64,000 bases of DNA. Source: Comamonadaceae bacterium. Lineage in GTDB: Bacteria > Pseudomonadota > Gammaproteobacteria > Burkholderiales > Burkholderiaceae_C. Below are positions 29,662 to 52,258 of this stretch, one piece after another (the first letter of the stretch is position 1; the number at the start of each line of letters is the position of its first letter). The notes beneath the pieces were generated by a model. It ran no database searches. It was not told the origin of the DNA and was given only the letters and a program-made list of their open reading frames with translations. The stretch covers positions 1 through 64,000 of the forward strand of contig CANFPJ010000004.1 of NCBI GenBank assembly GCA_947448885.1. The letters run 5' to 3'. The position numbers and the translations under genes are program-made.

Positions 29662-30282
29662 TCAGACATCGATGGGCAAGCTGCTCGCAGGCCCGTGGCT
29701 TTGTCGCGCTTCCCAGGCTTCGATGAGCGACAACTGTTGCAAGGTCATGCCCACCTCGTCCAAACCCAACAGCAAAGCGGAGCGCTGGGCTGCGGGGATC
29801 TCAAAGGAAATGTGAAAGCCATCGGGCCCCGTGACTTGTTGATTTTGCAGATCAACGGTAAAAGCTGGTTGCCCTGCGCTCAACAAAGCCGCATGCATCC
29901 AGGCTGCCACCTGTGCAGCAGACAACTCCAGGGGCAAGACACCATTTTTATAGCAGTTGTCACGAAAAAATTCGGCCAACCGGTGTCCGACCACGCACCG
30001 AATGCCATAGGCTTGCATGGCCCAAACGGCATGCTCGCGTGAACTGCCGCAGCCAAAATTGGAACCCACCAACAAAATGGGCGCCCCTTGGTACGGGGCT
30101 TGCTCCAAGACGCAAGATTCAATCGGGCTGCCATCGGGTCGGCGCCGCGCATACGCCATGAAGCCATCGGCCATGGATGCGTTCAGGTCCTTCAAATAAG
30201 CCGATGGAATGATTTGATCTGTGTTGACATCCTCCAGCGGCATGGGGATGGCCGTGCCAGTGACTTTGACAAAAGCTTTCAT
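29662..30282 (-). CDS. leuD: 3-isopropylmalate dehydratase-like small subunit (LeuD family)
   Basis: PLEDVNTDQIIPSAYL, VGSNFGCGSSREHAVWAMQAYGI; start MKAFVKVTG at 30282. Confidence 0.88.
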   Translation of the reverse strand: MKAFVKVTGTAIPMPLEDVNTDQIIPSAYLKDLNASMADGFMAYARRRPDGSPIESCVLEQAPYQGAPILLVGSNFGCGSSREHAVWAMQAYGIRCVVGHRLAEFFRDNCYKNGVLPLELSAAQVAAWMHAALLSAGQPAFTVDLQNQQVTGPDGFHISFEIPAAQRSALLLGLDEVGMTLQQLSLIEAWEARQSHGPASSLPIDV

Positions 30283-31679
30283 GATGAGGCCTCGGGCTGC
30301 AACCAAGTTCGAAAGTCCACGATGTGGCCCGCCACCGCTGCTGCGGCCGCCATGGCTGGGCTGGCCAAATGGGTGCGCACGCCTCGACCTTGCCGATTTT
30401 CAAAATTGCGGTTGCTGGTGGCCACACACCGCTCGCCAGCGCGCCCCACTTCGCCATTGGCACCGGCACACATGGAGCAGCCTGACAGATGCCACTCAAA
30501 GCCAGCGGCCAGAAAGATTTGATCCAAGCCCTCTGACTCGGCTTGGCGTTTGACCGCGTTGGAGCCCGGCACGACCAAGGCCGTCACCCCCGGGGCGACT
30601 TTGCGCCCTTGAACAACCTGCGCCGCATGGCGCAAGTCGGTGATTCGGGCATTGGTGCACGAGCCAATGAAGACACGCTGGATGGGCAAGCCCACCAAGG
30701 CCTGTCCCGTTTGCAAGTCCATATAAGCCAAAGCACGCTGTTGGCGGTCAAATTCTTGGGCTTGAACCTTGGGGACATCGCCAATCGCTTCGTCGACATT
30801 CACGCTCTGACTGGGGTCGGTTCCCCAGGTGATTTGAGGCCCAATTTGGGCGCAATCAATGGTCACTTCGGTATCAAAAACCGCATCCGCATCGGTATGG
30901 AACACCTGCCACTGGCGAACGGCCTCGGCCCAAAGCGCCCCTTTGGGGGCGTGGGCTTGTTGCGCAATCCAATCAAACGTGCGCTGATCCGGGGCGATCA
31001 AACAGGTTCGGCCGCTCCATTCGATGGTCATGTTGCACAAGGTCATGCGCGACTCCAAGTCCATGGCGCTGACCACCGGGCCGGCATATTCCACCGCATG
31101 TCCGCGCCCAAAATCCACACCAACGGTGCGAATCAAGTGCAGGGCCACGTCTTTGGCGGTGACCCCGAACCCCAATGAGCCCTGCAAAACAATGCGCATT
31201 TGCTGGGGCTTTTCCATGGCAATGGTTTGGGTGGCCAAGACATGAACCATTTCGGTGGTGCCGCAACCAAAGGCCAAACACCCCAAAGCCCCCACCGTGG
31301 AGGAATGGCTGTCCGGGCATGCCAGCGTTCCCCCCGGAACCGCCCACCCTTGTTCTGGCGAAATCACATGGCTGATGCCGTGGCGCGAATCCTCCACCGA
31401 CAGTCGCTTGACGCCATGCTTGGCGGTGGCCAGGCCTGTGGCATCGATGTGCCCAGAGCGCAAGGGCACACCCACGCGCGTGGGCACCGTGTGATCCTGG
31501 ACCACCACCGTGATGTCTTTGCGGCGCACCGAGTGGGCATGCTTGTCCATGTCGGCAAAGGCGTGGGGCGCGTGCAGTTCGTGAACAATGTGGCGATCGA
31601 TGTAGAGCAGTTGTCGACCATCTTCTCGCTGCCCCACCCAGTGGGCCTCCCAAATTTTGTCAAACAGTGTTTTTTTCAT
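30279..31679 (-). CDS. leuC: 3-isopropylmalate dehydratase-like large subunit (LeuC family)
   Basis: MKKTLFDKIWEAHWVGQREDG, CPDSHSSTVGALGCLAFGCGTTEM, SCTNARITDLR. Confidence 0.9.
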   Translation of the reverse strand: MKKTLFDKIWEAHWVGQREDGRQLLYIDRHIVHELHAPHAFADMDKHAHSVRRKDITVVVQDHTVPTRVGVPLRSGHIDATGLATAKHGVKRLSVEDSRHGISHVISPEQGWAVPGGTLACPDSHSSTVGALGCLAFGCGTTEMVHVLATQTIAMEKPQQMRIVLQGSLGFGVTAKDVALHLIRTVGVDFGRGHAVEYAGPVVSAMDLESRMTLCNMTIEWSGRTCLIAPDQRTFDWIAQQAHAPKGALWAEAVRQWQVFHTDADAVFDTEVTIDCAQIGPQITWGTDPSQSVNVDEAIGDVPKVQAQEFDRQQRALAYMDLQTGQALVGLPIQRVFIGSCTNARITDLRHAAQVVQGRKVAPGVTALVVPGSNAVKRQAESEGLDQIFLAAGFEWHLSGCSMCAGANGEVGRAGERCVATSNRNFENRQGRGVRTHLASPAMAAAAAVAGHIVDFRTWLQPEASS

Positions 31680-31694
31680 GGCGTGGTTGGTGGG

Positions 31695-32569
31695 TTAATC
31701 CGGGCTGAATTGCTGTTCCAGTGCCATCCAATGGTCCAGGCCCAGCACTTGGTTGTAGGCTTCAAAGCTGGCCATGCGATCGCGCACGGCCAATGTGTGT
31801 TGATCGCGATGCAAAGCAGCATAAGCATCTTGCAAGGCCTTGACCACGGCGTAACGGGCGATGCCCGCATGCAATGCAAACACGCATCCCACGGCTTCCA
31901 ATTGGTCATTGGTCAGCAAGGTGGTGGGGCCCGCTTCTTGAATCACCGTGACCAAAGGCGCTCGCACTTGGTCTGCCACATAGCGCAGTTCCTCAGAGGT
32001 GTTGGCACCCATCACCAAAGCCGCATCGGCACCCGACTCGATGTATCGACGGGCACGCTCGGTGGCGTTCTCCAGGCCGTGCATGGATTTGGCATCGGTG
32101 CGGGCAATGATCAAAAAATGCGGATTGCGACGGGCACTCACGGCGGCTTTGATTTTGAAGCAGTGTTCATCCTCCGAAATCACCGGTATGCCCTGGGGCA
32201 AGATGCCGCAGCGTTTGGGCGTGACCTGGTCTTCCAAGTGAATGCCCGCCACCCCTGCCGCTTCAAACTCTTGCACGGTGCGGATGACATTCATCACACC
32301 ACCATAACCGGTGTCTGCATCACAAATCATGGGGATGTTCAGCCCCCGCGCAATGCGGCCCGCATGGCTGACGTTATCGGTCAAATTCAACACGCCAATG
32401 TCAGGCAAGCCCATCAAACTGGCCGACACCGCATTCCCGGAAAGGCCACACCTTGAAACCCGGCCATTTGGGCCATGCGCGCGGACAGCCCGTCGTAGGC
32501 ACCCGGCATGCGAATCAAACGGCCTTGGGCCATCAAGCTGTGAAGGGTGTCAGAGGCGTTTGAGAGCAT
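31695..32569 (-). pseudogene. isocitrate lyase/PEP-mutase (ICL/PEPM) family lyase, frameshifted
   Basis: 3' part is ORF 31695..32429; the 5' part starts at ATG 32569 (MLSNASDTLHSLMAQGRLIRMPGAYDGLSARMAQMAGFQGVAFPG) in another frame; 1 nt apparently missing near 32437-32441. Confidence 0.8.
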
Positions 32570-36442: not shown

Positions 36443-37735
36443 CTAGGCTTTGCGGGGGATGACCACGCCGTCAAATTCTTTCATCGCCATGCCCAGCGCT
36501 TGCGACGCCATCTCGCGCACGGGGGCCGGCTGCCCCGCTTGAAAAATATAAGACGTGTAAAACTGCTTCAACGTGGGATGGGCCAAAATTTCCGCCTGGG
36601 TGCGACTTTGGGTGATTTGATCCCCGTAGACCATGGGCAATGGCAACCGAACATGGCGCGTCGGATCGCGCAAGATGGCTTTGGGTTCACCCCCTTGGGC
36701 CACGGTGTCCATCTCCTCAAAGAAGCGGCGGCGCATGGCCACAATGCCCCTGTCACTGACACTCAAGTTTTCGCGGCTGCGGTCGGCAATGCGCCCTTGC
36801 CCCACCCAAGCCAAAAAATCTTGGTTCATCACGTGGGTGTCGATCCAGCGACCGTGCTCGTCTTTCACCGGGCCCCACCAAGTGGGAATGTGGGTCTGCA
36901 CATAAGGCTCGCGTTCACGCGGCACACGCGTGTATTTCCAAGTGACGCTCAAGGTGTTTTCGTCATCGATGGGCACACGCCATTCAAAGTGCTCCCCCAA
37001 AAAGAATCCATTGGGCCACAAGCAAACCCGGCCCACGGTCCAAGCTTGGTCCTGTTCGCTGGTGTCTTGCTTGACCCGGTGATAGGTGAAGCCATGTTCA
37101 AACTCTTTGAAGTCCAACTTCAAATGGGTGGCGCCAAAGCGCACCTCACCGGTGCGCTGACGGTTGCCCCAGTTCTCGTGCATCCATTCAAAATGCACCG
37201 GGTCGATCGAGTTTTCTTGGCATTGAAACCAATTGCACGGCACCTCTGAGAGCACCACTTGGGTGAAACCGTTGTCCCATGAAAACGCTTCCCAATCGGG
37301 CAGCAAGGGGGCCGGTTGTGGCCCCATATAAGCCCACAGCATGCCGCCCTTGGCTTGCACCGGATACGCCGTGAGCTTGACCCGTGCTTTGGCTGGGCGC
37401 TCGGGGTGCGCGGTGTCCTCAAACGGTTGATGGAGGCAAGCACCATGGTGATTGAATTGCCAGCCGTGGTAACTGCAGCGCAAGCCCTGCGCCTCCACCA
37501 TGCCAAAGCTCAAATCAGCGCGTCGGTGCGGACATTGGCGTTGCACCAATCCGTACGTACCGCTGAGATCTTTGTAAAGCACCAGGTCTTCGCCCATCAA
37601 GCGAATCGGTTTGGTGCTGGTGGTGTCCAATTCAGACACGCCCGCGATCGGCATCCAATAACGGCGCAACAAGTTGCCCATGGGGGTGCCGGGCCCCACC
37701 CGCACCAAGCGCTCGTTTTGTTCTGGGGTCAGCAT
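36443..37735 (-). CDS. Rieske aromatic ring-hydroxylating oxygenase/O-demethylase, oxygenase subunit (phthalate 4,5-dioxygenase/LigXa-like size)
   Basis: CPHRRADLSFGMVEAQGLRCSYHGW Rieske motif; ENSIDPVHFEWMH mononuclear iron motif. Confidence 0.9.
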   Translation of the reverse strand: MLTPEQNERLVRVGPGTPMGNLLRRYWMPIAGVSELDTTSTKPIRLMGEDLVLYKDLSGTYGLVQRQCPHRRADLSFGMVEAQGLRCSYHGWQFNHHGACLHQPFEDTAHPERPAKARVKLTAYPVQAKGGMLWAYMGPQPAPLLPDWEAFSWDNGFTQVVLSEVPCNWFQCQENSIDPVHFEWMHENWGNRQRTGEVRFGATHLKLDFKEFEHGFTYHRVKQDTSEQDQAWTVGRVCLWPNGFFLGEHFEWRVPIDDENTLSVTWKYTRVPREREPYVQTHIPTWWGPVKDEHGRWIDTHVMNQDFLAWVGQGRIADRSRENLSVSDRGIVAMRRRFFEEMDTVAQGGEPKAILRDPTRHVRLPLPMVYGDQITQSRTQAEILAHPTLKQFYTSYIFQAGQPAPVREMASQALGMAMKEFDGVVIPRKA

Positions 37736-39774: not shown

Positions 39775-39913
39775 TGACCATCTGAAAATTGATGAGCGAT
39801 CCAGCCGCACAAAGGCGACAAGCTTGCGGTTTACCCTGTTGAAGAAGGCCTGGGCTTGGGGTAACTTGGCCCATTCACAAATCACCCCTTTTTCAACCCA
39901 AGGACACCCCAGC

Positions 39914-40915
39914 ATGCCCACCTTGAGATGGCCCTTTCGGCAATTGGCGCAGATTTGGCTTGTGCTGATTGGCTTCCTGATCGTCCATCAGGCCAGCGCA
40001 CAAACCACAGCGGATACCAGCAACTACCCCAGCCAACCGGTGAAACTGGTTGTGCCTTATCCGCCTGGCGGTGGCGCTGATTTTTTGGCCCGTTTGATGG
40101 CTGAAAAGGCCCAGACCAAATGGGGGCAGACCGTGATCGTCGAAAACCGCTCAGGTGCGGGTGGCAATGTGGGCACCGAATCTGTCTTTCGTGCCAACCC
40201 CGATGGCTACACCTTGTTGTTCACGGCGCAGCCCCCATTGGTGGCCAATAAAAGTCTGTACGCCAAACTCAATTTTGACCCCGACATCATGACGCCGGTG
40301 TCACTCATGACCACCGGTTACAGCGTGTTGTTGGTGCACCCTAAACTGCCCGTCAACAACGTTGCCGAATTGATCGCCTACGCCAAAGCCAACCCCAACA
40401 AACTCAATTACGCCTCACAAGGCATCGGCAACGCCGCCCACTTGAGTGCCGAACTTTTTTGCTCCATGGCTGGCATCAAAATGACCCACATCCCCTACAA
40501 AGGCACGGGTCCCGCCTTGGCCGATGCCTTGTCGGGCCAGGTCGAGGTCTATTTTGGTGAGCTGGCCACCTCCGGCGTGCATGTGCGGGCGGGCAAGCTC
40601 AAACTACTGGCTGTGGGTGGCGAAAAGCGTTTGCCCGACTACCCGCAAGTGCCCACGTTGTCAGAGACTTTGCCCAAATACCTCGCCACGGTGTGGCAAG
40701 GCATGGTGGGCCCGCCCGGCATGTCCATGGCCATTTCACGCAAGTGGGCAGGCTTGGTCAATGAGGTGCTCAAAAACCCCGATGTGCTGAAAAAATTGCA
40801 AGACATGAGCATGATCCCCGCCGGCGGAAGCCCTGAAGACATGGCGCAATTCATGCGCGAAGACCGCGAACGCTGGAGCGCCGTCATCAAGGCCTCTGGC
40901 GCCAGAGCCGACTGA
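39914..40915 (+). CDS. Bug/TctC-family substrate-binding protein
   Basis: ATG at 39914; YPSQPVKLVVPYPPGGGADFLARLMAE, VENRSGAGGNVG. Confidence 0.9.
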   Translation: MPTLRWPFRQLAQIWLVLIGFLIVHQASAQTTADTSNYPSQPVKLVVPYPPGGGADFLARLMAEKAQTKWGQTVIVENRSGAGGNVGTESVFRANPDGYTLLFTAQPPLVANKSLYAKLNFDPDIMTPVSLMTTGYSVLLVHPKLPVNNVAELIAYAKANPNKLNYASQGIGNAAHLSAELFCSMAGIKMTHIPYKGTGPALADALSGQVEVYFGELATSGVHVRAGKLKLLAVGGEKRLPDYPQVPTLSETLPKYLATVWQGMVGPPGMSMAISRKWAGLVNEVLKNPDVLKKLQDMSMIPAGGSPEDMAQFMREDRERWSAVIKASGARAD

Positions 40916-40947: not shown

Positions 40948-42234
40948 ATGATCACCGCAGAACAAAACAAAAAACTCACTGGCGTGAGCGCTGGAACCCC
41001 CTTGCACGAGCCCTTATCCCGTTTTTGGTACCCCGTGCTCCACGCGGCCCAATTGAAAGACCGTTGCACCCGAAAAATTCGCTTGCTTGGCGAGGACTTT
41101 GTCATTGCCAGAAATGGGGAGAACTTGCTGGCGATGGAAGAAAAGTGTCCGCACCGCCAATGCTCGCTCATTTTGGCCCGCGTCGAAGACCAAGGCTTGC
41201 GTTGCATCTACCATGGTTGGCTGATGAGCCCGTTGGGCAAGGTGATCGAAGCCCCCAACGAGCGTGAGCAAGGGGGCCGCCAACGCATTCAAATGCGCAC
41301 CGCTGCATTGCGCGAGGCGGGTGGCCTGATTTGGATGAACATCTGCGCCGATGAAGCACAGCGTGCGCCCTTCCCCGACCTGCCCTGGTTCCACCTCCCC
41401 GCCGATCAGGTGGTGGTGGTCGATGCCATCTGCCATTCCAATTGGGTGCAATCCTTGGAAGGGGCGATTGACTCTTCCCATTCATCGCATTTGCATTCAG
41501 ATGAGATCGTCAGCAAAAAAGCCGGGGACGTGAGCACCGCTGTGGGCGCGGGCATGCAACTGCAGTTCACCCGCCCTTCGACCGACAAGCATCCCCGCAT
41601 TCAGGTGCGCAACACCGACTTTGGCTTCATTTACGGCGCCTTGCGCATCCCCACCGTGGACCCCGACAAATGGGTCTACATTCGCGCCTCGGCATTCGCC
41701 TATCCCTCTTATGTGACGTTTCCATCGGCGGATACCTTGGGCGATCTGCAGGTGTTTGTGCCGGTCGATGAAGACCACACCCATTTTTTCTACATCCGCT
41801 TTTCGACCCGTGACCCGCTGAATCAACTCAATTTGCCGGCTTGGTCGGGCATGGAGCCGGGTAAAGATGTGGATGAAAACGGTTTCTTGCGCGCTGCCGC
41901 CCTGCCCCTGTGGGGCCAAGACCGCGATGCCATGGCGCAGGGAAAATCTTTCACCGGGCTCAAAGGCGTGAACTTGCAAGACATCGTGGTGCAAGAGAGC
42001 ATGGGGCCCATCGTCGACCGCACCAAAGAGAACCTGGGCCCGGCCGATTTGGCCATTGTTCACTTTCGCCGCCTGTTGCTGGAGACGGCGGACGGCCAGG
42101 CCGCCGCCCAACCGGGCTTTGCCCCGCAGCTTTCCTACCAAGGCCTGAAGGCCCGAGACGGGTTGTTGCCGATTGACCAAGATTGGACTGCGCTTTACCC
42201 CAAAGACAGCGTTCATTGGCAAGCCACGCCATGA
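40948..42234 (+). CDS. Rieske oxygenase, oxygenase subunit
   Basis: CPHRQCSLILARVEDQGLRCIYHGW; EGAIDSSHSSHLH iron-binding motif. Confidence 0.9.
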   Translation: MITAEQNKKLTGVSAGTPLHEPLSRFWYPVLHAAQLKDRCTRKIRLLGEDFVIARNGENLLAMEEKCPHRQCSLILARVEDQGLRCIYHGWLMSPLGKVIEAPNEREQGGRQRIQMRTAALREAGGLIWMNICADEAQRAPFPDLPWFHLPADQVVVVDAICHSNWVQSLEGAIDSSHSSHLHSDEIVSKKAGDVSTAVGAGMQLQFTRPSTDKHPRIQVRNTDFGFIYGALRIPTVDPDKWVYIRASAFAYPSYVTFPSADTLGDLQVFVPVDEDHTHFFYIRFSTRDPLNQLNLPAWSGMEPGKDVDENGFLRAAALPLWGQDRDAMAQGKSFTGLKGVNLQDIVVQESMGPIVDRTKENLGPADLAIVHFRRLLLETADGQAAAQPGFAPQLSYQGLKARDGLLPIDQDWTALYPKDSVHWQATP

Positions 42235-43283
42235 GTCCAACCCAGGGCTTGGCCCAGCGCCCCATTGGCAACACAGGTCTGCACGCATCGGTGCTGGGTT
42301 TTGGCACGGGTGACAACGCAGGTTTGATGGTTTTGGGCAGCGTGGCCGACCAGCGTGAAGCCGTCGCCCAAGCCATTGGCGCGGGGGTGAATTATTTCGA
42401 TACCTCGCCCGACTATGGGCGTGGCCGCGCCGAAGAAAACCTGGGCCGCGCCCTCAAGGGGCGGCGCCAGGAAGTGCTGATCACCACCAAGGTGGAGGTC
42501 ATGCCTGCTGACCAACATCGATTGTCCAAAAAAGTTCACGAGTCGCTCAACGATTCATTGCGCCGCTTGGGCACCGACCATGTGGACATATTGATGATCC
42601 ACAACCCACCCTCGCGGCACCACGATTGGCAACGCACCACTTGGGCCCCGTTGGTGGTGGATGACTATTTGCGCCCAGACGGCGCTTTGGCGGGTTTGAG
42701 CGAGGTCATTGCGGCAGGCAAGGTGCGCATCGGTGGCATTGCCTGCGAAGAGGCCCACCCTGAAGCGCTGGCCCCCTTGGTCGGGCATCCAGCGGTGTCC
42801 ATTCTCAACATCTGGCTCAACATGCTCAACCCATCCTCTTTGCTGGACCCCAGCCCGACGCAAGTCAATGGGCCGGCGGACTACCGGGGCATGGCGCGCA
42901 TGGCGGCCGACAACGGTGTGGCCATCGCCGGTTTTCGCGCCCTGGGTGGGGGCGCCTTGATGTCGGCGGCAGCCAACACCCTGACCCGACACCCCATCGC
43001 TGGGGGTGGTTTTACCCGCAATGCCGCGCAATACAAGCGCGAAGTGGAATTGGCCGCCCGCTTGGTGACGCGCTTGGGCATCCAAGGCACCAACGCCATG
43101 GCCGCCTTGGCCTATCGTTTCAACATCACCGACCCGCGCATCACCACCACGGTGGCTGGTTTTTCTGAGTTGTCGCATTTGCACGGTGCCATTGATGGCC
43201 TGCGCAAGGGTGCTTTGTCAGCCGATGAAATGCAAGCCATCATGGCCGCCTGGCACGAATTGTTTGCCCTGGAACCCGCCTGA
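42231..43283 (+). CDS. aldo/keto reductase
   Basis: YFDTSPDYGRGRAEENLGRAL; start overlaps the upstream stop (ATGA). Confidence 0.88.
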   Translation: MSPTQGLAQRPIGNTGLHASVLGFGTGDNAGLMVLGSVADQREAVAQAIGAGVNYFDTSPDYGRGRAEENLGRALKGRRQEVLITTKVEVMPADQHRLSKKVHESLNDSLRRLGTDHVDILMIHNPPSRHHDWQRTTWAPLVVDDYLRPDGALAGLSEVIAAGKVRIGGIACEEAHPEALAPLVGHPAVSILNIWLNMLNPSSLLDPSPTQVNGPADYRGMARMAADNGVAIAGFRALGGGALMSAAANTLTRHPIAGGGFTRNAAQYKREVELAARLVTRLGIQGTNAMAALAYRFNITDPRITTTVAGFSELSHLHGAIDGLRKGALSADEMQAIMAAWHELFALEPA

Positions 43284-43309: not shown

Positions 43310-43903
43310 ATGTCACTGCACACCACCATCAGCGGATTTCACCCCGTTCACTCATTCGCCCAGCTCTCCACCCCTGTGATCAGCGACGCGCTGGATGCCC
43401 TGGGCGTGCACGGCCAATGCACCGGTCTTCAGGTCCAAGAAGCCGGCACCTTCAAACCTTTTTGTGGGCGCGCTTTCACGGTGCAATTCATGCCCTGCGG
43501 CACCCCCGATGAACGCACACCCTCGGGTGGTATTGGCGACTACATCGACGATGTTCCCGAGGGTTATGTCATTGCCATCGACAACCGCGAGCGGCTCGAC
43601 TGTTGTGTTTGGGATGAGCACGTCCATCAGCGCGCCCTGGCCCGGGGCGTGGCGGGTGTGGTGATCGATGGCGCTTGCCGCCTGCCCCCCACTGACAAGG
43701 CCCCACTGCCGGTGCTGGCCCGGGGTCGACAAGCCCAGCATGGGGCCAAACGGGTGCGGGTCGAAGCCTTCAACTTGGCGATCGTGATGGGCGGGGTTCG
43801 GGTGGAATGCGATGATTTGATCATTTCAGATCACAACGGCTTGGTGGTCGTCCCGCGTGACTACATCCAATTGGTTTGGAAACACATCCAAGCTGCCCGT
43901 TGA
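43310..43903 (+). CDS. RraA-family protein (CHA/HMG aldolase-like), R-L at the catalytic RD position
   Basis: STPVISDALDALGVHGQ, GDYIDDVPEGYVIAIDN, GVVIDGACRLPPT. Confidence 0.82.
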   Translation: MSLHTTISGFHPVHSFAQLSTPVISDALDALGVHGQCTGLQVQEAGTFKPFCGRAFTVQFMPCGTPDERTPSGGIGDYIDDVPEGYVIAIDNRERLDCCVWDEHVHQRALARGVAGVVIDGACRLPPTDKAPLPVLARGRQAQHGAKRVRVEAFNLAIVMGGVRVECDDLIISDHNGLVVVPRDYIQLVWKHIQAAR

Positions 43904-43964: not shown

Positions 43965-44894
43965 ATGAGCTTTTGGGCCGACATCATCGCCTTGCTGGCC
44001 GCCACTTGTTGGGCCGGTGCCAACACCTGCATCGCGCGGGGGTCTTCTCACCAAGGGGGTGAGAACGGGGCTTTTTTATCCATTTTGCTGACTGCCTTCA
44101 TTGCCGGTGTGGTGTGGGTCATCGGTGGTGGCACCGACGGTCAGGCGCTGAACCTGACCGGCCTGGCTTGGTTTGCTGCAGCGGGGGCATTGACCATTTT
44201 TGTGGGCCGGGTGTTTTTCCATTCCAGTGTGCAATACATGGGCGCCGTGCGCAGCTCTTCGGTCAAACGCTTGGTGCCCTTGTTCTCGGTGTTGCTGGGC
44301 GTGGTTTACCTGGATGAAAGCCTGAGTTGGTCTGCGTTGACCGGCATGGTTTTGATTTTTACTGGCTTTGGTGTGTTGGTGTGGGAGTCCAAGCAAAAAA
44401 CAGCCCCCAAGGGGCCTGATGACGCCGCTCACCAGGGGCCCAGTCGCCAAACCTTGCGCATGGGCATGGTCTATGGCGTGGTCTCGGCCGGCGCCTATGC
44501 CACTGGCAACATGTCGCGCAAGTTTGGCCTCTTGCACATTTCTGAACCCGCGTTCGGTGCGATGTTGGGGGCCTTGGTCGGGGCGATCCTGTTTGTGGCT
44601 TCGGCGGTGTTTTTGCAAAGTTACCGCGAGGCGGTGAAAAACACCTTGAAAAAACCCAATCCTTGGCTGCTCAGCGCCGGGATTTTGGCGTCCGCAGGAC
44701 AACTGCTTTATTTTGTGGCGATTGACTGGAGTTCTTTGTCGCGGGCCACCCTGATCGTTTCGATGGATGTTTTTTTGACCATCTTGGTCGCCTTGGTGTT
44801 TTTTCAAAAGCGCGAGGCGGTCAATCGGTATGCCGTGGTGGCAGCCGCCCTGGGGGTGTTGGGCACCGGCGTGATCATTGGGGGCGCGGCCTGA
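43965..44894 (+). CDS. EamA/DMT-family transporter
   Basis: multi-TM, EamA-like repeats. Confidence 0.85.
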   Translation: MSFWADIIALLAATCWAGANTCIARGSSHQGGENGAFLSILLTAFIAGVVWVIGGGTDGQALNLTGLAWFAAAGALTIFVGRVFFHSSVQYMGAVRSSSVKRLVPLFSVLLGVVYLDESLSWSALTGMVLIFTGFGVLVWESKQKTAPKGPDDAAHQGPSRQTLRMGMVYGVVSAGAYATGNMSRKFGLLHISEPAFGAMLGALVGAILFVASAVFLQSYREAVKNTLKKPNPWLLSAGILASAGQLLYFVAIDWSSLSRATLIVSMDVFLTILVALVFFQKREAVNRYAVVAAALGVLGTGVIIGGAA

Positions 44895-44945: not shown

Positions 44946-46253
44946 TCACATGCCCGCTTTTTCAGTGCTGCGCGGCAACACGATGCCGTCATAGGGTTTG
45001 GCATCGATGCCCATGGCTTGTGAAAAAGCCTGGCGCACCGCCTCGGGTTGACCGGCTTGAAACGGATAAGTGGCGTACAAGAGTTTCAAACGTGGATTGG
45101 CCATGATTTGTTCCACCGTGTGGGCTTGCAGCAACTCATCACGGTCCATCATGGGCAAAACCACGCGTTGGTTTTGGGCAGGGTCACGCAAGATGCCTTT
45201 GGCTTCCTCGCCCTTGGCGATGCGGGCCATTTCATCAAAAAAGCGCCGTCGAATGGCCACCACACCGCCATCACTGGCACCCAGTGACTCTTGGCTGCGG
45301 TCTGCAACCACACCCTGCCCAACCCAGGCAATGAAATCTTGGTTCATCACGTGGGTGTCGATCCAGCGGCCCTGTGCATCTTTGAGCGGCCCATGCCAGG
45401 TGGGGATGTGGTCTTGCACGTAGGGCTCGTGCCCGGCCGGCACGCGGGTGTATTTCCAAGTGATGCTCAGGGTGTTGTGGTCATCGATGGGCACACGCCA
45501 CTCAAAATGCTCGCCCAAGAAAAACCCATTCGGCCACAGGCACACACGGCCCACCGTCCAAGCCTGGTTGTGCTCGTCGCTGTCTTGTTTGGTGCGGCGA
45601 TAGGTGAAGCCAAATTCAAATTCATCAAAGGCCAATTTCAAATGCGTCGGGCCCAACTTGGTGCTGCCGGTGCGCAGGCGGTTGCCCCAGTTCTCGTGCA
45701 TCCATTCGAAGTGCACGGGGTCGATGGAGTTTTCTTGGCACTGGAACCAATTGCAGGGCACTTCAGAGATGACCACCTGGCTGAAGCCATTGGGCCATGA
45801 AAAGGCTTCCCAATCGGGCAACAACGGTGCCGGTTGCGGCCCCATGTACGTCCACAACATGCCACCCTGGGATTGCACCGGGTAGGACTTGATGCGGATG
45901 CGATCCTTGACGTTGCGCTCGGGGTAAACGGTGTCTTCATAGGGTTGTGCAATGCAGCGCCCGGTTTCATCAAAATTCCAACCGTGGTAGTTGCAGCGCA
46001 GGCCTTTGGCCTCGACCATGCCGTAACTCAGGTCGGCGCGCCGATGGGCGCATTGGCGATCCACCAGGCCATGGGTGCCGCTCAAATCTTTGTACAGCAC
46101 CAAGTCTTCACCCAACAAACGAATGGCTTTGGTGGCTTGGTGGTCAAACTCTGACACGCCGGCGATCGGCATCCAATAGCGGCGCAGCAATTCGCCCATG
46201 GGGGTGCCCGCCCCCACTTGGGTCAGTTGTTGGTTTTGTTCAGGGCTGAGCAT
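44946..46253 (-). CDS. Rieske oxygenase, oxygenase subunit (close paralog of 36443..37735)
   Basis: CAHRRADLSYGMVEAKGLRCNYHGW; ENSIDPVHFEWMHENWGNR shared with paralog. Confidence 0.9.
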   Translation of the reverse strand: MLSPEQNQQLTQVGAGTPMGELLRRYWMPIAGVSEFDHQATKAIRLLGEDLVLYKDLSGTHGLVDRQCAHRRADLSYGMVEAKGLRCNYHGWNFDETGRCIAQPYEDTVYPERNVKDRIRIKSYPVQSQGGMLWTYMGPQPAPLLPDWEAFSWPNGFSQVVISEVPCNWFQCQENSIDPVHFEWMHENWGNRLRTGSTKLGPTHLKLAFDEFEFGFTYRRTKQDSDEHNQAWTVGRVCLWPNGFFLGEHFEWRVPIDDHNTLSITWKYTRVPAGHEPYVQDHIPTWHGPLKDAQGRWIDTHVMNQDFIAWVGQGVVADRSQESLGASDGGVVAIRRRFFDEMARIAKGEEAKGILRDPAQNQRVVLPMMDRDELLQAHTVEQIMANPRLKLLYATYPFQAGQPEAVRQAFSQAMGIDAKPYDGIVLPRSTEKAGM

Positions 46254-46314
46254 GAAGGTTCTCCTGCCATGGGGCCTAAGCCCATGAAAAATTCAGATGT
46301 CCCTGGGCGGTGAA

Positions 46315-47310
46315 TCAAGCCTGCCACACGGCAAAGGCCGCGCCCACCCCGGTTCCAGCGGGTGTGCGCCGCAAGGTGTGATAACTGTGCCAAGTCAACG
46401 GCAGGGCTTTCACGGCACCCGCGGTCACCACCCAATTGAGGATTTCAGACGAGCCAGAATTCAATGCCCCACGCGGCAGATCGCGCAAAGCTTGATGATC
46501 GCCGCTTTGCAAGGCGGTCAGAATGGTTTGATCCAGGGTTTCATCGACGATGAAATGGCTCAATCCTCCCGAGGCCACCACCGCGACCCGCAAGTTTTGT
46601 GGACAGTCGCGCAAGGCCTGTCCCAAGGCCAAACCAAAATCATGGCAACGGCGGGCGCTGGGGACGTTGGGACCATAGTAGGTGTTGAGCAAAACGGGCA
46701 GCACCGGAATGGCTTTGCCCCTGAACAAGCGCTTGATGATGAAGCCATAGGCGTGGCCAAAACCCGCGTTCTCGGGATGGGCCACATGCGAGCAGGCGCC
46801 AATGTCAAAGTCGGCATTGATCAGGCGCTCGATCAAGGCCAAGGCCAATTCGCTGCTGGCCGCCACGGTGTGCAAGTCGTCCATCAAATAGCCACGGCCC
46901 ATTTGTTGAATCCATTCGGGGCTGTCGGGGTGGCCGTATTTGTTGCTGGTGATGAAGCGTTCACCGTGGTAGATGGCGATGGCCGGTTGATTGGCGGATG
47001 TGAACAACTCGCGTTGATCGTCGCCCACGATCACCACCACATCGGGCGCGACTTGCGCCAACACATCACCCAAGTGGTCCAAAGCCTGGTCACAGGCCTT
47101 GGATTTTTGGCTGAAGGTTTCGAAGTTCACTTCATCGGCATAGCGTGGACCGACCTCGGCCAGCAATTGCTCATAGGTGACCAAGCGGCCGTCCGAGTGG
47201 TTCAAGCCGGTATTGGCATAGTCCACTTCGGAACGGCGTTGCCATTGATCGACCGTGAGCGCCAACAGGGGTGTGTGCGACACCCCCATGCCCAAAACGA
47301 TGGATGCCAT
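46315..47310 (-). CDS. LigB-type (type II) extradiol ring-cleavage dioxygenase
   Basis: IVLGMGVSHTPLL, VVIVGDDQRE, VAVVASGGLSHFIVDE. Confidence 0.85.
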   Translation of the reverse strand: MASIVLGMGVSHTPLLALTVDQWQRRSEVDYANTGLNHSDGRLVTYEQLLAEVGPRYADEVNFETFSQKSKACDQALDHLGDVLAQVAPDVVVIVGDDQRELFTSANQPAIAIYHGERFITSNKYGHPDSPEWIQQMGRGYLMDDLHTVAASSELALALIERLINADFDIGACSHVAHPENAGFGHAYGFIIKRLFRGKAIPVLPVLLNTYYGPNVPSARRCHDFGLALGQALRDCPQNLRVAVVASGGLSHFIVDETLDQTILTALQSGDHQALRDLPRGALNSGSSEILNWVVTAGAVKALPLTWHSYHTLRRTPAGTGVGAAFAVWQA

Positions 47311-47316
47311 GGCGGG

Positions 47317-48300
47317 TCAGAACTTGAAACGGCTGTACAAGCGGGTGCAGTTGCACTCAAACACATTGCGCTTGTCTTGTTCGGTCAAGAAATCAATGCT
47401 TTCGATCACCGGTTTGAGGTCATCAAAGTCCAAACCGGTGGTCGGGTCCACAGCACTGCCGGTGCCTGGCTTTTCAGTGGCGAACAACACCCGATCGGGG
47501 CCCACCACTTTGAACAGCAACTCCAGCGCATGCTTGTCGTAGGTGGTGGTGTCAAAGTGCAAACGCTTGAGTTGGTCGTCGAAATACTCGCCGCCATTGC
47601 GCACCGTCCACGCCCGAAAACGCCCCATTTGATAGGGGATCGCACCGCCACCATGGGGCACGATGAGCTTGAGCTTGGGGAACTTTTTGAACACTGGCGA
47701 ATTCAAAATCGAGTGAATGGCAATGCTTTCCTCATTGATGAACTTCAGGGTATAGCTTTCGCGCGCCTGGCAACTGCCGGCCGAGTGAATCAAGGCGGGG
47801 ATGTCGAGTTCGCACAGCTTGTCATACAAGGGGTACCAAAACTCATCGCCCAATCCCGGCGGGGGCAAGGTGTCTCCCTCGGTGGGGTCGGGGTTGAGCA
47901 AGCAGCCGATGAAGCCCTGCTCTTTGACACGAAACTCCAATTCGTCAAAACAATTGACGGGGCTGGTGTCGCGGTATTGCGGCAAGCCAGCGACCGCGCG
48001 AAAACGCGTGGGGAACATGGTGACCGTGCGAAAGACCAAATCGTTCATGTGCTGGGTCCACAGCGCGGTGACCCGGGCTGGTTTGACCGAGTGCATTTGC
48101 ATGTACGGGCGCGGCGACAAAAACTGGATGTCGGTGCCCACCCGGTCCATCAAATCAATGATGGTCTGACCGGCAACGCGCACCGCGTCATCGGTGAGCT
48201 TGGGCGGAAACGATGGGTTGGAGCGGCTGGCCACCAACTCGGCCATGAATTTGTAGCTCTCGGGCGGCACCACGACGTGGGCATGTGAATCGATGATCAA
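47317..48300 (-). CDS. amidohydrolase-superfamily protein (LigY meta-cleavage hydrolase / LigJ hydratase type)
   Basis: IIDSHAHVV, SPRPYMQMHSVKPARV, LKLIVPHGGGAIPYQMGRF; likely TTG start at 48300 preceded by AGGAG. Confidence 0.85.
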   Translation of the reverse strand: MIIDSHAHVVVPPESYKFMAELVASRSNPSFPPKLTDDAVRVAGQTIIDLMDRVGTDIQFLSPRPYMQMHSVKPARVTALWTQHMNDLVFRTVTMFPTRFRAVAGLPQYRDTSPVNCFDELEFRVKEQGFIGCLLNPDPTEGDTLPPPGLGDEFWYPLYDKLCELDIPALIHSAGSCQARESYTLKFINEESIAIHSILNSPVFKKFPKLKLIVPHGGGAIPYQMGRFRAWTVRNGGEYFDDQLKRLHFDTTTYDKHALELLFKVVGPDRVLFATEKPGTGSAVDPTTGLDFDDLKPVIESIDFLTEQDKRNVFECNCTRLYSRFKF

Positions 48301-48360
48301 AGGGGTTCTCCTGTGGGGTGGCTGAAAAAGTCTGAATGGGAATGCGTCAACAAAGCGCAC

Positions 48361-49011
48361 TCAAGTGCGGGTCTGCAACTGGTGATAGCGGTGCTTTTCC
48401 CGCGCTTGGCGCAGGCTCATGCCCTCGCGCACCGACTGTCGAATCGCATCTTCGGCCGCTTGAATGGCCTCGGCCGCGTCCAACACCTCGTTTTCGCGGT
48501 CTTGGGGAATCACCACCACACCGTCAGCGTCGCCGCGCATCAAGTCGCCTGGGCAAACGCGCACGTCACCAATGTTGACGGGTGTGCCAGTGGTTTCCAC
48601 CTGCACCCGGTCTTTGCCGGTGCGCATCCAATGGTCGCGGCTGTAAATGGGGTAGCCCAGTTCCAGGCACAGCGACACATCGCGGTTGATGCCATCGATC
48701 ACCGTGCCCGCAATGCCTTTGCGGTGGGCAATTTCGGTCAAGATGTCGCCCCACACCGTGGCGTTGTCGCGCCCACCGTTGTCGAGCACGATGACACTGC
48801 CGGGGGCCACGTCGTCGATGTAGTCACCCACGGTACCGGGCACAGAACCCGCAGGGCCATACAGCAGGGTCCAAGCGCGACCGGTCATGCGAAAGTCGCT
48901 GGAGCGGGGTTTGATTTTGTAGCACTGCCCGTTCAGGCCATGGCGATCCAAAGCATCGCTGAGGGTGGCGGTGTCGAGCTGGGAAGCGCGTTGCACGTTG
49001 GCGTCGGTCAT
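48361..49011 (-). CDS. RraA-family protein, probable 4-carboxy-4-hydroxy-2-oxoadipate / HMG-type aldolase
   Basis: GDYIDDVAPGSVIVLDNGGRDNATVWGDILTEIAHRKGIAGTVIDGINRD. Confidence 0.85.
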   Translation of the reverse strand: MTDANVQRASQLDTATLSDALDRHGLNGQCYKIKPRSSDFRMTGRAWTLLYGPAGSVPGTVGDYIDDVAPGSVIVLDNGGRDNATVWGDILTEIAHRKGIAGTVIDGINRDVSLCLELGYPIYSRDHWMRTGKDRVQVETTGTPVNIGDVRVCPGDLMRGDADGVVVIPQDRENEVLDAAEAIQAAEDAIRQSVREGMSLRQAREKHRYHQLQTRT

Positions 49012-49039
49012 GGCGGGTCTTTCCTAAAAGCGGGGCTGA

Positions 49040-49699
49040 TCATTTCAGCATGTGTTCGTAATCCGCACCCATCACTTGGCTGACGGGTTGACCCGCCCGC
49101 AGGGCTTGGGCCATGGCGGCTTCGCGTCCAACGATCATTTCAGCGGCCTTCAAAACGCGATCAATGTCGGCGGCGGCAATGAACACCGCCCCGCTGGCAT
49201 CGGCAATCACGTAGTCACCCGGGCAAACAGTGACCTCCCCGATGCGCACCGGTTGGTTGGTGAAGGCTTCAGCCACCCGAGAACGAGCGGTGCGGGCCGT
49301 CAGGCCACGGGCATACACCGGAAATTCATAGGCGCGGGCCTCGTCGATATCGCGCACTGGGCCATCCACCACCACCCCTGCCACTTGCCGCAGTTTGGCG
49401 GCCAAGGACAAAATGCCGCCCCAGGAGCCTGCGTCCAAACCGGTGCGTTGCTCGATCACGATCACGTCCCCAGGTTGCGCGGCTTCAATCGCGGTGGTGC
49501 CCAGGTGTCGCGGCGCACCTTCATGGGGCGGTACTTGCGCAGCCGGCACCAATTTGTAGGTCACCACTTTTCCCGCTATGCGTTGTTGGGTCGACTGTTG
49601 GGTCAGGCCGCTGACGCTGGGGGGCAGGCCCAATTTGTCCATGGCGTCGGACACCGCACACACATCCAGGCGCTGCAAGCGCTTGACCGGGTCATCCAT
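49040..49699 (-). CDS. RraA-family protein
   Basis: ORF 49040..49825; likely start MDDPVKRLQRLDVCAVSDAMDKLGL at 49699; GVVVDGPVRDIDEA. Confidence 0.85.
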   Translation of the reverse strand: MDDPVKRLQRLDVCAVSDAMDKLGLPPSVSGLTQQSTQQRIAGKVVTYKLVPAAQVPPHEGAPRHLGTTAIEAAQPGDVIVIEQRTGLDAGSWGGILSLAAKLRQVAGVVVDGPVRDIDEARAYEFPVYARGLTARTARSRVAEAFTNQPVRIGEVTVCPGDYVIADASGAVFIAAADIDRVLKAAEMIVGREAAMAQALRAGQPVSQVMGADYEHMLK

Positions 49700-50111
49700 G
49701 CTGACCGTCCTTGACCACCGCAACGACCTCGATTTGCACCAACATGCCGCCGGGCAGGTCGGCCACCATGGTGTGGCGAGCGGGTCGGTCATGCGGATCA
49801 GGGAAGCATTGGAGCCACTCTGCATTCAGCGCATCGCGATGGCTGTTGTCTTTCACGTAGGCTTTGACATGCACCACATCACCCAGATCGGCCCCACCCT
49901 GGGCCAACAAACTGCGCAAATTCATGAACATGAACTTGGCTTGGCTGGGGCTATCGGCGGGCAAGGTGTCGGTGGCAGGGTCTTTCCCCATGATGCCGGA
50001 TGAATAAATCATGTTGCCCACGCGGGCTCCCATGGGAATCGGGGCATTGCCGTGGCTGACGCCAGGCACTTCGATCGATCTGCGGCCTCGGTTGGGCATG
50101 CTTGAACTCAT
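49692..50111 (-). CDS. RidA-family protein
   Basis: YSSGIMGKDPATDTLPADSPSQAKFMFMNLRSLLAQGGADLGDVVHVKAYV. Confidence 0.85.
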   Translation of the reverse strand: MSSSMPNRGRRSIEVPGVSHGNAPIPMGARVGNMIYSSGIMGKDPATDTLPADSPSQAKFMFMNLRSLLAQGGADLGDVVHVKAYVKDNSHRDALNAEWLQCFPDPHDRPARHTMVADLPGGMLVQIEVVAVVKDGQHG

Positions 50112-50209
50112 TGAATATCCTTGTGATTCATCAACTTATGGGGGTTTGATCAGCCTCTGAGCGACTTTTCGCCTGGCAACCATTTCCAGAGGCGGGCTTC
50201 ACCCATGCT

Positions 50210-50221
50210 ATTGAATTCAAT
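50210..50221. promoter_or_regulatory. palindrome in ridA-like/gntR-like divergent intergenic region (candidate operator)
   Basis: ATTGAATTCAAT perfect 12-bp palindrome. Confidence 0.45.
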
Positions 50222-50275
50222 TTTGCATGCCATCAGGGGAATCCCTCATGACTGGTGAAGCCGCCCTCACGTCAA

Positions 50276-50992
50276 ATGCCAAACAAGATGGCGCTTGAAC
50301 AATCCCCAGAATCCAAAAACCGCAGCCGCAAGGCCCAAGGGGCGATGGGGCGTGCGCTGAGCCAGATCAAAGACATGATCGTCAATGGCGAGCTCAACCC
50401 GGGCGAGCAAATTCGACAAGAAGAAATGGCGCTGAAACTCGCTGTCAGCCGCGTCCCCTTGCGCGAAGCATTGAATGTGTTGGCCGACCAAGGCCTGCTG
50501 TACCACCGCCCCCACCAGGGCTACTTTGTGACCAAACGCGACCCGGGTCAATATGCGCAAATCCGGCGCATGCTGCATTTGCTGGAAAACGAATTGATGG
50601 CCACCATCGCTTGGCCTGGGCCAGAAGATTTACAGCGCTTGAACGATTTGAACGCGCAAATGCAACGTTGCGTGGACGCCGCCGACACCCAGCAACTCAT
50701 TGAATTGAATCAACAATTTCATTTCGCCATCTTTGGCTTGTCACCCAACCGGCTGATCATGGACGAGGTCGCCCGTTTGTGGGCCTTGATCGAACCCGGC
50801 ATGTGGGACAAGTTCGACACCCATCAGCAGCGAATCCAAACCCTGCTGGAACATGAACGCCTGATCCAGACCCTGGCCGAGCAGGACCGTGCCGCCTGTG
50901 TCGCGCAAATGGAACAACACCGCTACAGCCCAGAAGACGGCATGCCCATCGAGTTGCCCGGGGTGGTGATCGAACCCACACCGCTGGTTTGA
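50276..50992 (+). CDS. GntR-family (FCD domain) transcriptional regulator
   Basis: LNPGEQIRQEEMALKLAVSRVPLREALNVLADQGLLYHRPHQGYFV wHTH. Confidence 0.9.
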   Translation: MPNKMALEQSPESKNRSRKAQGAMGRALSQIKDMIVNGELNPGEQIRQEEMALKLAVSRVPLREALNVLADQGLLYHRPHQGYFVTKRDPGQYAQIRRMLHLLENELMATIAWPGPEDLQRLNDLNAQMQRCVDAADTQQLIELNQQFHFAIFGLSPNRLIMDEVARLWALIEPGMWDKFDTHQQRIQTLLEHERLIQTLAEQDRAACVAQMEQHRYSPEDGMPIELPGVVIEPTPLV

Positions 50993-51106: not shown

Positions 51107-52258
51107 ATGCCTGGATTGTTGCCCCACGTCGACCCCCATGGACTGCTGGAATATTCGGTGGTGTACACCGACCGTTCGCTCAACCACATGTCGAAAGACT
51201 TTCAAAGCGTCATGCGCGATATTTCGCGCTTGATCAAGGAGGTGTACCACGCCCACAGTGCGGTCTTGGTCCCCGGCAGCGGCACCTTCGGCATGGAAGC
51301 CGTGGCCCGTCAATTTGCGACTGACAAAAATGTGCTGGTGCTGCGCAATGGCTGGTTCAGTTACCGCTGGACGCAAATTTTTGACATGGGTCGCATCCCA
51401 TCGGCGTGCACCGTGCTCAAAGCGCGGCGCATGAAGCCGGGCGCCCAAGAGCCCTTCTCGCCCGCCCCCATTGACGAAGTCGTGCGCACCATTGCCGCCG
51501 AAAAACCCGCTGTGGTGTTTGCCCCGCATGTCGAAACCTCTTGCGGCATGATGTTGCCGGCTGGCTATTTGCGCCAAGTCGCCGATGCGGTGCACGCGGT
51601 AGGTGGTCTGTTTGTGTTGGATTGCATTGCCTCGGGCGCGATGTGGGTGGACATGCAAGCCTGTGGCATCGACGTGCTGGTGACGGCCCCCCAAAAGGGC
51701 TGGAGCAGCTCGCCTTGTTGCGCCATGGTGGCCATGAGCGAGCGCGCGCGCCAAGCCATTGATGCCACCACCAGCACCAGCTTTGCCTGTGACCTGAAAA
51801 AATGGCTGCAAATCATGGAAGCCTATGAAGCCGGCGGTCATGCCTACCACGCCACCATGCCCACCGATGCGCTCAAGCGTTTGTGCGCTGTGATGTTGGA
51901 ATCGCAAGCGCTGGGCTTTGACCGTTTGCGTTTGGGCCAAGAAGAGCTCGGGCGCAAAGCCCGCGAAATGCTCAGCCGCCATGGCATTGCCAGTGTGGCC
52001 GCGCATGGCTTTGAGGCACCTGGCGTGGTGGTCAGCTACACCCAAGACCCGGAAGTGCAATCGAGCAAAAAGTTTTTGGCCCAAGGCCTGCAAACCGCTG
52101 CCGGTGTGCCCTTGCAATGCGATGAGGGCAGCGACTTCATGACTTTCCGCATTGGCTTGTTTGGCTTGGAAAAGCTCCTCAATGTGGACCGAACCGTTGA
52201 GTTGCTCGAAGGCGCCTTGGACCAAGTTTTGCCACAGGCCTTGGCCCACACGGCTTAG
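51107..52258 (+). CDS. class V aminotransferase (alanine/serine-glyoxylate type)
   Basis: VPGSGTFGMEAVARQF, VLDCIASGAMWVDMQACGIDVLVTAPQKGWSS (PLP Lys). Confidence 0.87.
   Translation: MPGLLPHVDPHGLLEYSVVYTDRSLNHMSKDFQSVMRDISRLIKEVYHAHSAVLVPGSGTFGMEAVARQFATDKNVLVLRNGWFSYRWTQIFDMGRIPSACTVLKARRMKPGAQEPFSPAPIDEVVRTIAAEKPAVVFAPHVETSCGMMLPAGYLRQVADAVHAVGGLFVLDCIASGAMWVDMQACGIDVLVTAPQKGWSSSPCCAMVAMSERARQAIDATTSTSFACDLKKWLQIMEAYEAGGHAYHATMPTDALKRLCAVMLESQALGFDRLRLGQEELGRKAREMLSRHGIASVAAHGFEAPGVVVSYTQDPEVQSSKKFLAQGLQTAAGVPLQCDEGSDFMTFRIGLFGLEKLLNVDRTVELLEGALDQVLPQALAHTA

Follow-up and report, generated by a model that had tools for sequence, protein, structure and literature searches.

What would bring a RidA protein, two RraA proteins, an amidohydrolase, a LigB-type dioxygenase and a Rieske oxygenase together in one gene unit, and by which route would they degrade an aromatic ring? 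The question is raised by positions 44946–50111 of a 64,000-nucleotide stretch (the window; positions 1 to 64,000 of contig CANFPJ010000004.1, assembly GCA_947448885.1) from a Comamonadaceae bacterium of the Burkholderiales. Its draft genome (G000) measures 3.35 Mb in 215 contigs and is 88% complete, and a Hylemonella metagenome-assembled genome (MAG; Comamonadaceae) is a near relative. A scan of the window for open reading frames and Pfam domains found all six genes intact in one operon-like unit on the minus strand, transcribed in the order RidA, RraA2, RraA1, amidohydrolase, LigB-type dioxygenase and Rieske2. We lean towards reading this unit, by analogy, as an inducible catabolic module for a meta-cleavage route in the style of LigX-LigZ-LigY.

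The near-contiguous arrangement described in a first-pass annotation of the sequence holds: the RidA stop codon overlaps the RraA2 start at ATGGATGA, and the gaps measured are 28 bp between RraA2 and RraA1, 6 bp between the amidohydrolase and LigB, and 61 bp between LigB and Rieske2. Two gene starts were corrected. The amidohydrolase begins at TTG 48300, preceded by AGGAGA, which gives a protein of 327 residues in register with Met1 of LigY, and RraA2 begins at ATG 49699 (not 49825), giving 219 residues. The earlier proposal of a ring-cleavage module is supported.

An amidohydrolase of the LigY type

Comparison of the amidohydrolase with PDB sequences (phmmer) returned LigY as the best match at 300 bits, against 214–221 bits for LigJ and at most 67 bits for ACMSD. 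IQ-TREE placed the LigJ proteins, the host's own copy among them, in one clade with 100/100 support, and the window protein groups with LigY outside it; the window protein, LigY and the amidohydrolases of related modules make up three subgroups whose branching order is not settled. Nine alignment columns are invariant within the LigY-type (Y) and LigJ-type (J) groups and differ between them, and the window protein is Y-type at all nine. Tyr190 is present in 11 of 11 Y-type sequences, with Thr in 7 of 7 J-type ones, and the metal ligands are kept in the window protein; we take His6, His8, His179 and Glu282 to be these ligands and Tyr190 to be a catalytic residue. Because of the PDB scores, the exclusion from the LigJ clade and the nine Y-type residues, a predicted LigY-type C–C hydrolase is the best reading of the amidohydrolase, in agreement with the choice of LigY as its model on first pass.

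To our knowledge, LigY had been a nearly isolated case of an amidohydrolase that catalyzes meta-cleavage C–C hydrolysis. This experimentally characterized enzyme lies within the module family, since it is 70% identical to the amidohydrolase of a Polymorphobacter module and 53% identical to that of an Aminobacter module.

The alternative named first in the earlier annotation was a gallate or 4-oxalomesaconate-type route, in which LigB would perform a gallate-like cleavage, a LigJ-type hydratase would follow, RraA would act as a 4-carboxy-4-hydroxy-2-oxoadipate (CHA) aldolase yielding pyruvate and oxaloacetate, and RidA would be a tautomerase. The protocatechuate 4,5-cleavage and gallate systems (LigABCIUJK, GalABCD) do share with the unit a LigB fold, an Amidohydro_2 member and an RraA-fold aldolase, the RraA proteins resemble CHA aldolases (81.7 and 78.1 bits to the TIGR02798 equivalog, though far under its cut-off of 304.5), and at a Bordetella locus (L006) RidA and a close LigB relative occur alongside a LigJ-type protein and an HpaI-type aldolase. 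We nevertheless consider this route quite unlikely. The tree and the diagnostic residues led us to drop the LigJ reading of the amidohydrolase, so that the unit is without a LigJ-type hydratase; the genome's own LigJ, LigK and protocatechuate dioxygenase sit elsewhere, at G000:C26; and neither a LigU/GalD-type tautomerase nor LigI was seen within the cluster, nor LigA or LigC, whose absence had been pointed out before.

An aminophenol/aminomuconate route, also raised on first pass, or one for N-heteroaromatics, in which RidA would deaminate an imine or enamine once an aminated or pyridine-type ring has been opened, appears just as improbable. The amidohydrolase is not ACMSD-like, and at 67 bits at best, compared with 300 for LigY, the ACMSD reading was dropped; no aminomuconate semialdehyde dehydrogenase is found in the unit or nearby, and the modules closest to LigY, those of Polymorphobacter and Aminobacter, lack RidA. 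In its favor, RidA-family proteins have been proposed to deaminate aminomuconate-type products (PMC9420511), 3,4-dihydroxypyridine is the annotated cleavage substrate of PydA, a dioxygenase of the LigB family (PMC7356986), and a class V aminotransferase gene lies near the unit (51107–52258).

Recurrence of the module and its constant partners

A core of amidohydrolase, RraA2 and RraA1, usually with RidA and LigB, was found in Alpha- and Betaproteobacteria and in Rhodococcus. Chance association is ruled out because this core recurs in unrelated lineages with ordered neighbors. A search of 72,556 plasmid records gave 23 with a Y-type amidohydrolase (at least 43% identity) and 23 with RraA2 (at least 45%), and the two sets are identical; they come from about seven lineages and do not count as 23 separate events. 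Within the Burkholderiales the Y-type enzyme is rare (3 of 399 genomes, G000 itself included), two of the five amidohydrolase matches (G059 and G293) being LigJ-type by the tree; samples taken across the whole phylum yielded few modules.

The full set of LigB, amidohydrolase, RraA2, RraA1, RidA, Rieske2 and GntR is found as in the window in G790, split over two contigs. G294 shares this core, its LigB being more distant, and adds Rieske2, a VanB-type reductase, CoA-thioester enzymes and adjoining beta-oxidation-type genes, and G175 holds LigB, RraA2, Rieske2 and the amidohydrolase within one region. The ring-hydroxylating oxygenase differs between modules (Rieske, P450 or flavin, the last being FAD_binding_3/Rng_hyd_C): Bradyrhizobium plasmid modules carry two P450s, a Rhodococcus koreensis R85 plasmid module carries a flavin monooxygenase alongside an acyl-CoA synthetase, GntR and a third RraA, and on sphingomonad plasmids for polycyclic aromatic hydrocarbon (PAH) degradation amidohydrolase-RidA-RraA2-RraA1 stands behind a Rieske alpha/beta pair. 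A third RraA is likewise present in the Polymorphobacter and Aminobacter plasmid modules. In the PAH-degradation plasmid modules at L020 10001–12833 and L021 8010–10834 one RraA is annotated as a diguanylate cyclase, and the L021 amidohydrolase reads as two overlapping frames.

Constant across the modules are the amidohydrolase and RraA2/RraA1 (usually RidA), and variable are the oxygenase and the acid-activation genes. Because a LigY-type hydrolase releases a variable acid and a constant dienoate, the constant partners are best explained as enzymes of the constant fragment; the RraA pair and RidA would probably process the dienoate freed by LigY-type enzymes. LigY-type hydrolases thus form a broader family, accompanied by this RraA pair and usually by RidA and a LigB-type dioxygenase, and preceded by oxygenases that can be exchanged.

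RraA1 and RraA2 belong to separate ortholog groups and are adjacent in a fixed order in the window, L014–L017, L019–L021, L038 and L063. Both keep the Arg-Asp motif, known as Arg123 and Asp124 from 4-hydroxy-4-methyl-2-oxoglutarate (HMG)/CHA aldolases (PMC5065237); at +3 RraA2 carries an additional Glu (RDIDE), and RraA1 has no acidic residue there and a conserved YHxLQ at its C-terminus. The first-pass description as "two RraA aldolases" simplifies matters. The two proteins are distinct orthologs in a constant pairing, and in five modules (L016, L017, L019, L038 and L063) a canonical HMG/CHA-type aldolase is encoded as a third member next to them or within their operon, so the pair probably has a role beyond the usual aldolase reaction. 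RidA belongs to a module-specific subfamily with a conserved RPARH. A further RraA protein of the window, RraA3, lacks the motif (no Asp), yet is 82% conserved in the Hylemonella MAG (L007).

The oxygenases and the proposed route

The dioxygenase has the LigB Pfam domain, and its subgroup keeps the positions of His12, His127, His195 and Glu242 (LigB numbering). The position of His61, normally an iron ligand, is occupied by Gln in 15 of 15 members of this DQxE subgroup ([DNK]DQxE); the protocatechuate LigB of the same genome has His there. An AlphaFold model of the dioxygenase (four sequences) had a mean pLDDT of 56, too poor to judge Gln61. The Gln-site subgroup also takes in a paralog on G000:C67 (L045, 7544–10873), a LigB-family protein with a GDDQYE motif beside an amidohydrolase-family protein and a Bug gene, which may be a further uncharacterized ring-cleavage pair. 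At L006 10001–13368 and L018 7070–11861, relatives of the Gln-site LigB are paired with a LigJ-type amidohydrolase and an HpcH/HpaI-type aldolase, as if the same dioxygenase type fed a different lower pathway. Rieske2 has an intact CxH/CxxH cluster motif and scores 49 bits for the LigXa_C domain PF19301 (Rieske1 195 bits; cut-off 27), with orthologs of 58–62% identity in the G294, G175, G790 and Polymorphobacter modules.

From the observed gene content, orthology, residue patterns and linkage we infer the reactions, the substrate class and the regulation as follows. Rieske2, perhaps also Rieske1 or Rieske3, would form a catechol-type ring by hydroxylation or O-demethylation, as its family suggests, and the LigB-type dioxygenase, with its altered iron site, would open the ring beside the diol to give a product containing a vinylogous 1,5-diketone. 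The amidohydrolase, assigned to its class by sequence and to its reaction by the precedent of LigY, would then cut a C–C bond to release a side-group acid R-COOH and 2-hydroxy-penta-2,4-dienoate, probably 4-carboxylated (4-carboxy-2-hydroxypenta-2,4-dienoate, CHPD, is the product of LigY; PMC6874591). Their co-occurrence suggests that RidA and RraA1/RraA2 would take the dienoate through tautomerization, hydration and retro-aldol cleavage to pyruvate-level products, helped by a canonical HMG/CHA aldolase where present and here possibly by LigK at G000:C26. Variable partners such as acyl-CoA ligases and acyl-CoA dehydrogenases would process the variable acid.

In a comparison of 5,5'-dehydrodivanillate (DDVA) pathways, the enzyme for hydration of CHPD in Sphingobium sp. 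SYK-6 is given as not identified (PMC12673573, Table 2), and the module supplies a short candidate list for this unassigned dienoate step in the catabolism of a lignin dimer, as well as a LigB subgroup in which one iron ligand is changed and a candidate regulator-operator pair for finding inducers. One tentative version, which we regard as possible but doubtful, is that a heteromer of RraA1 and RraA2 with RidA constitutes the missing hydratase/aldolase branch using CHPD, and that Gln or a nearby Glu replaces the ligand His at the iron site of the dioxygenase.

The LigXa-LigZ-LigY genes for DDVA in SYK-6 resemble the unit in bringing a LigXa_C-type Rieske oxygenase, a class III-type dioxygenase and a LigY-type amidohydrolase into one neighborhood, and LigY falls among the module amidohydrolases. 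They differ in that the window hydrolase has no more than moderate similarity to LigY, its regulator is of the GntR family (MarR-type DdvR in SYK-6), uptake is probably by Bug-type binding proteins (a TonB receptor in SYK-6), and RraA1, RraA2 and RidA are not described for the SYK-6 pathway in PMC6874591 and PMC12997858. Judged by its locus tags, SYK-6 has SLG_07730 and SLG_07740 between ligZ and ligY. The mhqPOD DDVA cluster of Paenibacillus sp. B2 (PMC12673573) likewise combines extradiol cleavage, C–C hydrolysis, a proposed hydration and an HMG aldolase (RraA), but MhqD is a Ser-His-Asp type hydrolase, MhqO is unrelated to LigZ and an azoreductase takes the place of the Rieske enzyme. The lower lumichrome pathway LumE-LumW-LumY-LumX (PMC12746152) follows the same logic of Rieske oxygenation, extradiol cleavage, hydrolysis, hydration and retro-aldol cleavage to pyruvate; its ring-cleavage product, however, is a pyrone, and LumY is cupin-type. 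The idea that LumY is a RidA protein was dropped on its cupin annotation. A link to the flavonoid fde/ifc genes was dropped as well because FdeC/IfcB is a glyoxalase-type protein (PMC11069340).

A natural deletion in the Hylemonella MAG bears on the boundaries of the unit. At L007 1158–1335 a clean scar joins the RidA start to the last amidohydrolase codons, RraA2 and RraA1 are gone, and an intact LigB (88%) follows downstream; Rieske2 is absent, and the rest of this incomplete genome of 1.9 Mb yielded neither a Y-type amidohydrolase nor an RraA2 ortholog. The same MAG keeps exactly the plus-strand neighbor operon of the window, Bug-Rieske1-AKR-RraA3-EamA (AKR, aldo/keto reductase), and the ratio of nonsynonymous to synonymous substitution rates (dN/dS) is near 0.06 in all four genes tested (LigB, Rieske1, EamA and Bug, the last 0.061). 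The true unit could on this evidence be the plus-strand operon plus LigB, with the hydrolase, RraA and RidA genes as a losable accessory branch. We rate this as unlikely, given that L007 is an incomplete MAG and that in the other loci examined LigB is mostly accompanied by the hydrolase, or by a LigJ-type protein in its place, and not by Rieske1, AKR or RraA3.

Several points weigh against the LigX-LigZ-LigY-style reading. Purifying selection on LigB and Rieske1 in L007 after the loss of RidA, RraA and the amidohydrolase implies that LigB may function independently of the hydrolase, and the sphingomonad plasmids carry no adjacent LigB. The dioxygenase subgroup is without one iron-ligand His and so departs from the 2-His-1-Glu site of class III enzymes, and the dioxygenase and Rieske proteins are related to LigZ and LigXa by family and neighborhood only. 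Among all proteins of the module family only LigY has been characterized biochemically, and the window amidohydrolase is roughly 45% identical to it. Two modules, those of Polymorphobacter and Aminobacter, have no RidA nearby, and ring carboxylation of the substrate is an assumption.

Regulator and neighboring genes

The palindrome ATTGAATTCAAT sits between the divergent GntR and RidA genes, and ATTGAATKCAAT is present as a single copy in the whole genome. Of 47 loci, the closely similar form ATTGNATNCAAT is found in L005 and L016 only and is absent from the other 45; it precedes Bug-amidohydrolase-LigB in L005 and occurs twice in L016, before an aldolase-LigB-RraA operon, with simple composition-based expectations of 0.005 and 0.002. 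Orthologs of the window GntR are encoded at both loci (50% identity in L005, 41% in L016). The regulator probably controls the operon by acting on ATTGAATTCAAT. An inverted repeat with arms at 50189–50203 and 50254–50268 was set aside as operator in favor of the genome-unique palindrome.

Table 1. Positions of the genes and the candidate operator in the window, with the evidence for each
Feature	Position	Strand	Evidence
RidA family protein, 139 aa, first gene of unit	49692..50111	-	PF01042; orthologs 34–62% in related modules; alignment
RraA2, 219 aa, RDIDE	49040..49699	-	PF03737; orthologs 45–73%; junction; motif alignment
RraA1, 216 aa	48361..49011	-	PF03737; orthologs 47–77%; motif alignment
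LigY-type amidohydrolase (predicted), 327 aa	47317..48300	-	PF04909; PDB scores; tree; nine diagnostic residues
LigB-type (class III) dioxygenase-like protein, 331 aa, GDDQRE	46315..47310	-	PF02900; alignment; tree
Rieske2 oxygenase, LigXa_C type	44946..46253	-	PF00355 and PF19301 above cut-off
GntR-family regulator, divergent from RidA	50255..50992	+	Orthologs in L005 and L016 modules
Perfect 12-bp palindrome ATTGAATTCAAT, candidate GntR operator	50210..50221	.	Uniqueness in genome
Bug/TTT-type solute-binding protein, neighboring plus-strand operon	39911..40915	+	Conserved in L007
Rieske1 oxygenase, LigXa_C type	40948..42234	+	91% identity in L007; 29% to Rieske2
Aldo/keto reductase (AKR)	42225..43283	+	PF00248
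RraA3, without catalytic Asp of R-D motif (CRLPP)	43310..43903	+	PF03737; motif
EamA transporter	43965..44894	+	PF00892
Rieske3	36443..37735	-	71% identical paralog of Rieske2

The six-gene unit lies inside a catabolic stretch of about 23 kb (about 29.6–52.3 kb of the window), which includes the plus-strand operon at 39.9–44.9 kb. Rieske3 is accompanied by an AMP-ligase, an MFS transporter and a Bug gene and is a duplication, perhaps used where two similar oxidations follow each other, for the second one. Outside the window, G000:C7 encodes a VanB-type reductase (52% identity to the G294 copy) as a possible partner of the Rieske enzymes. The 29.6–37.7 kb part also holds, at 29662–32429, a LeuC/LeuD-like pair and a methylisocitrate-lyase-like protein (209 bits, short of the cut-off of 354), which together resemble the dehydratase and lyase needed for an acid of the methylmalate type.

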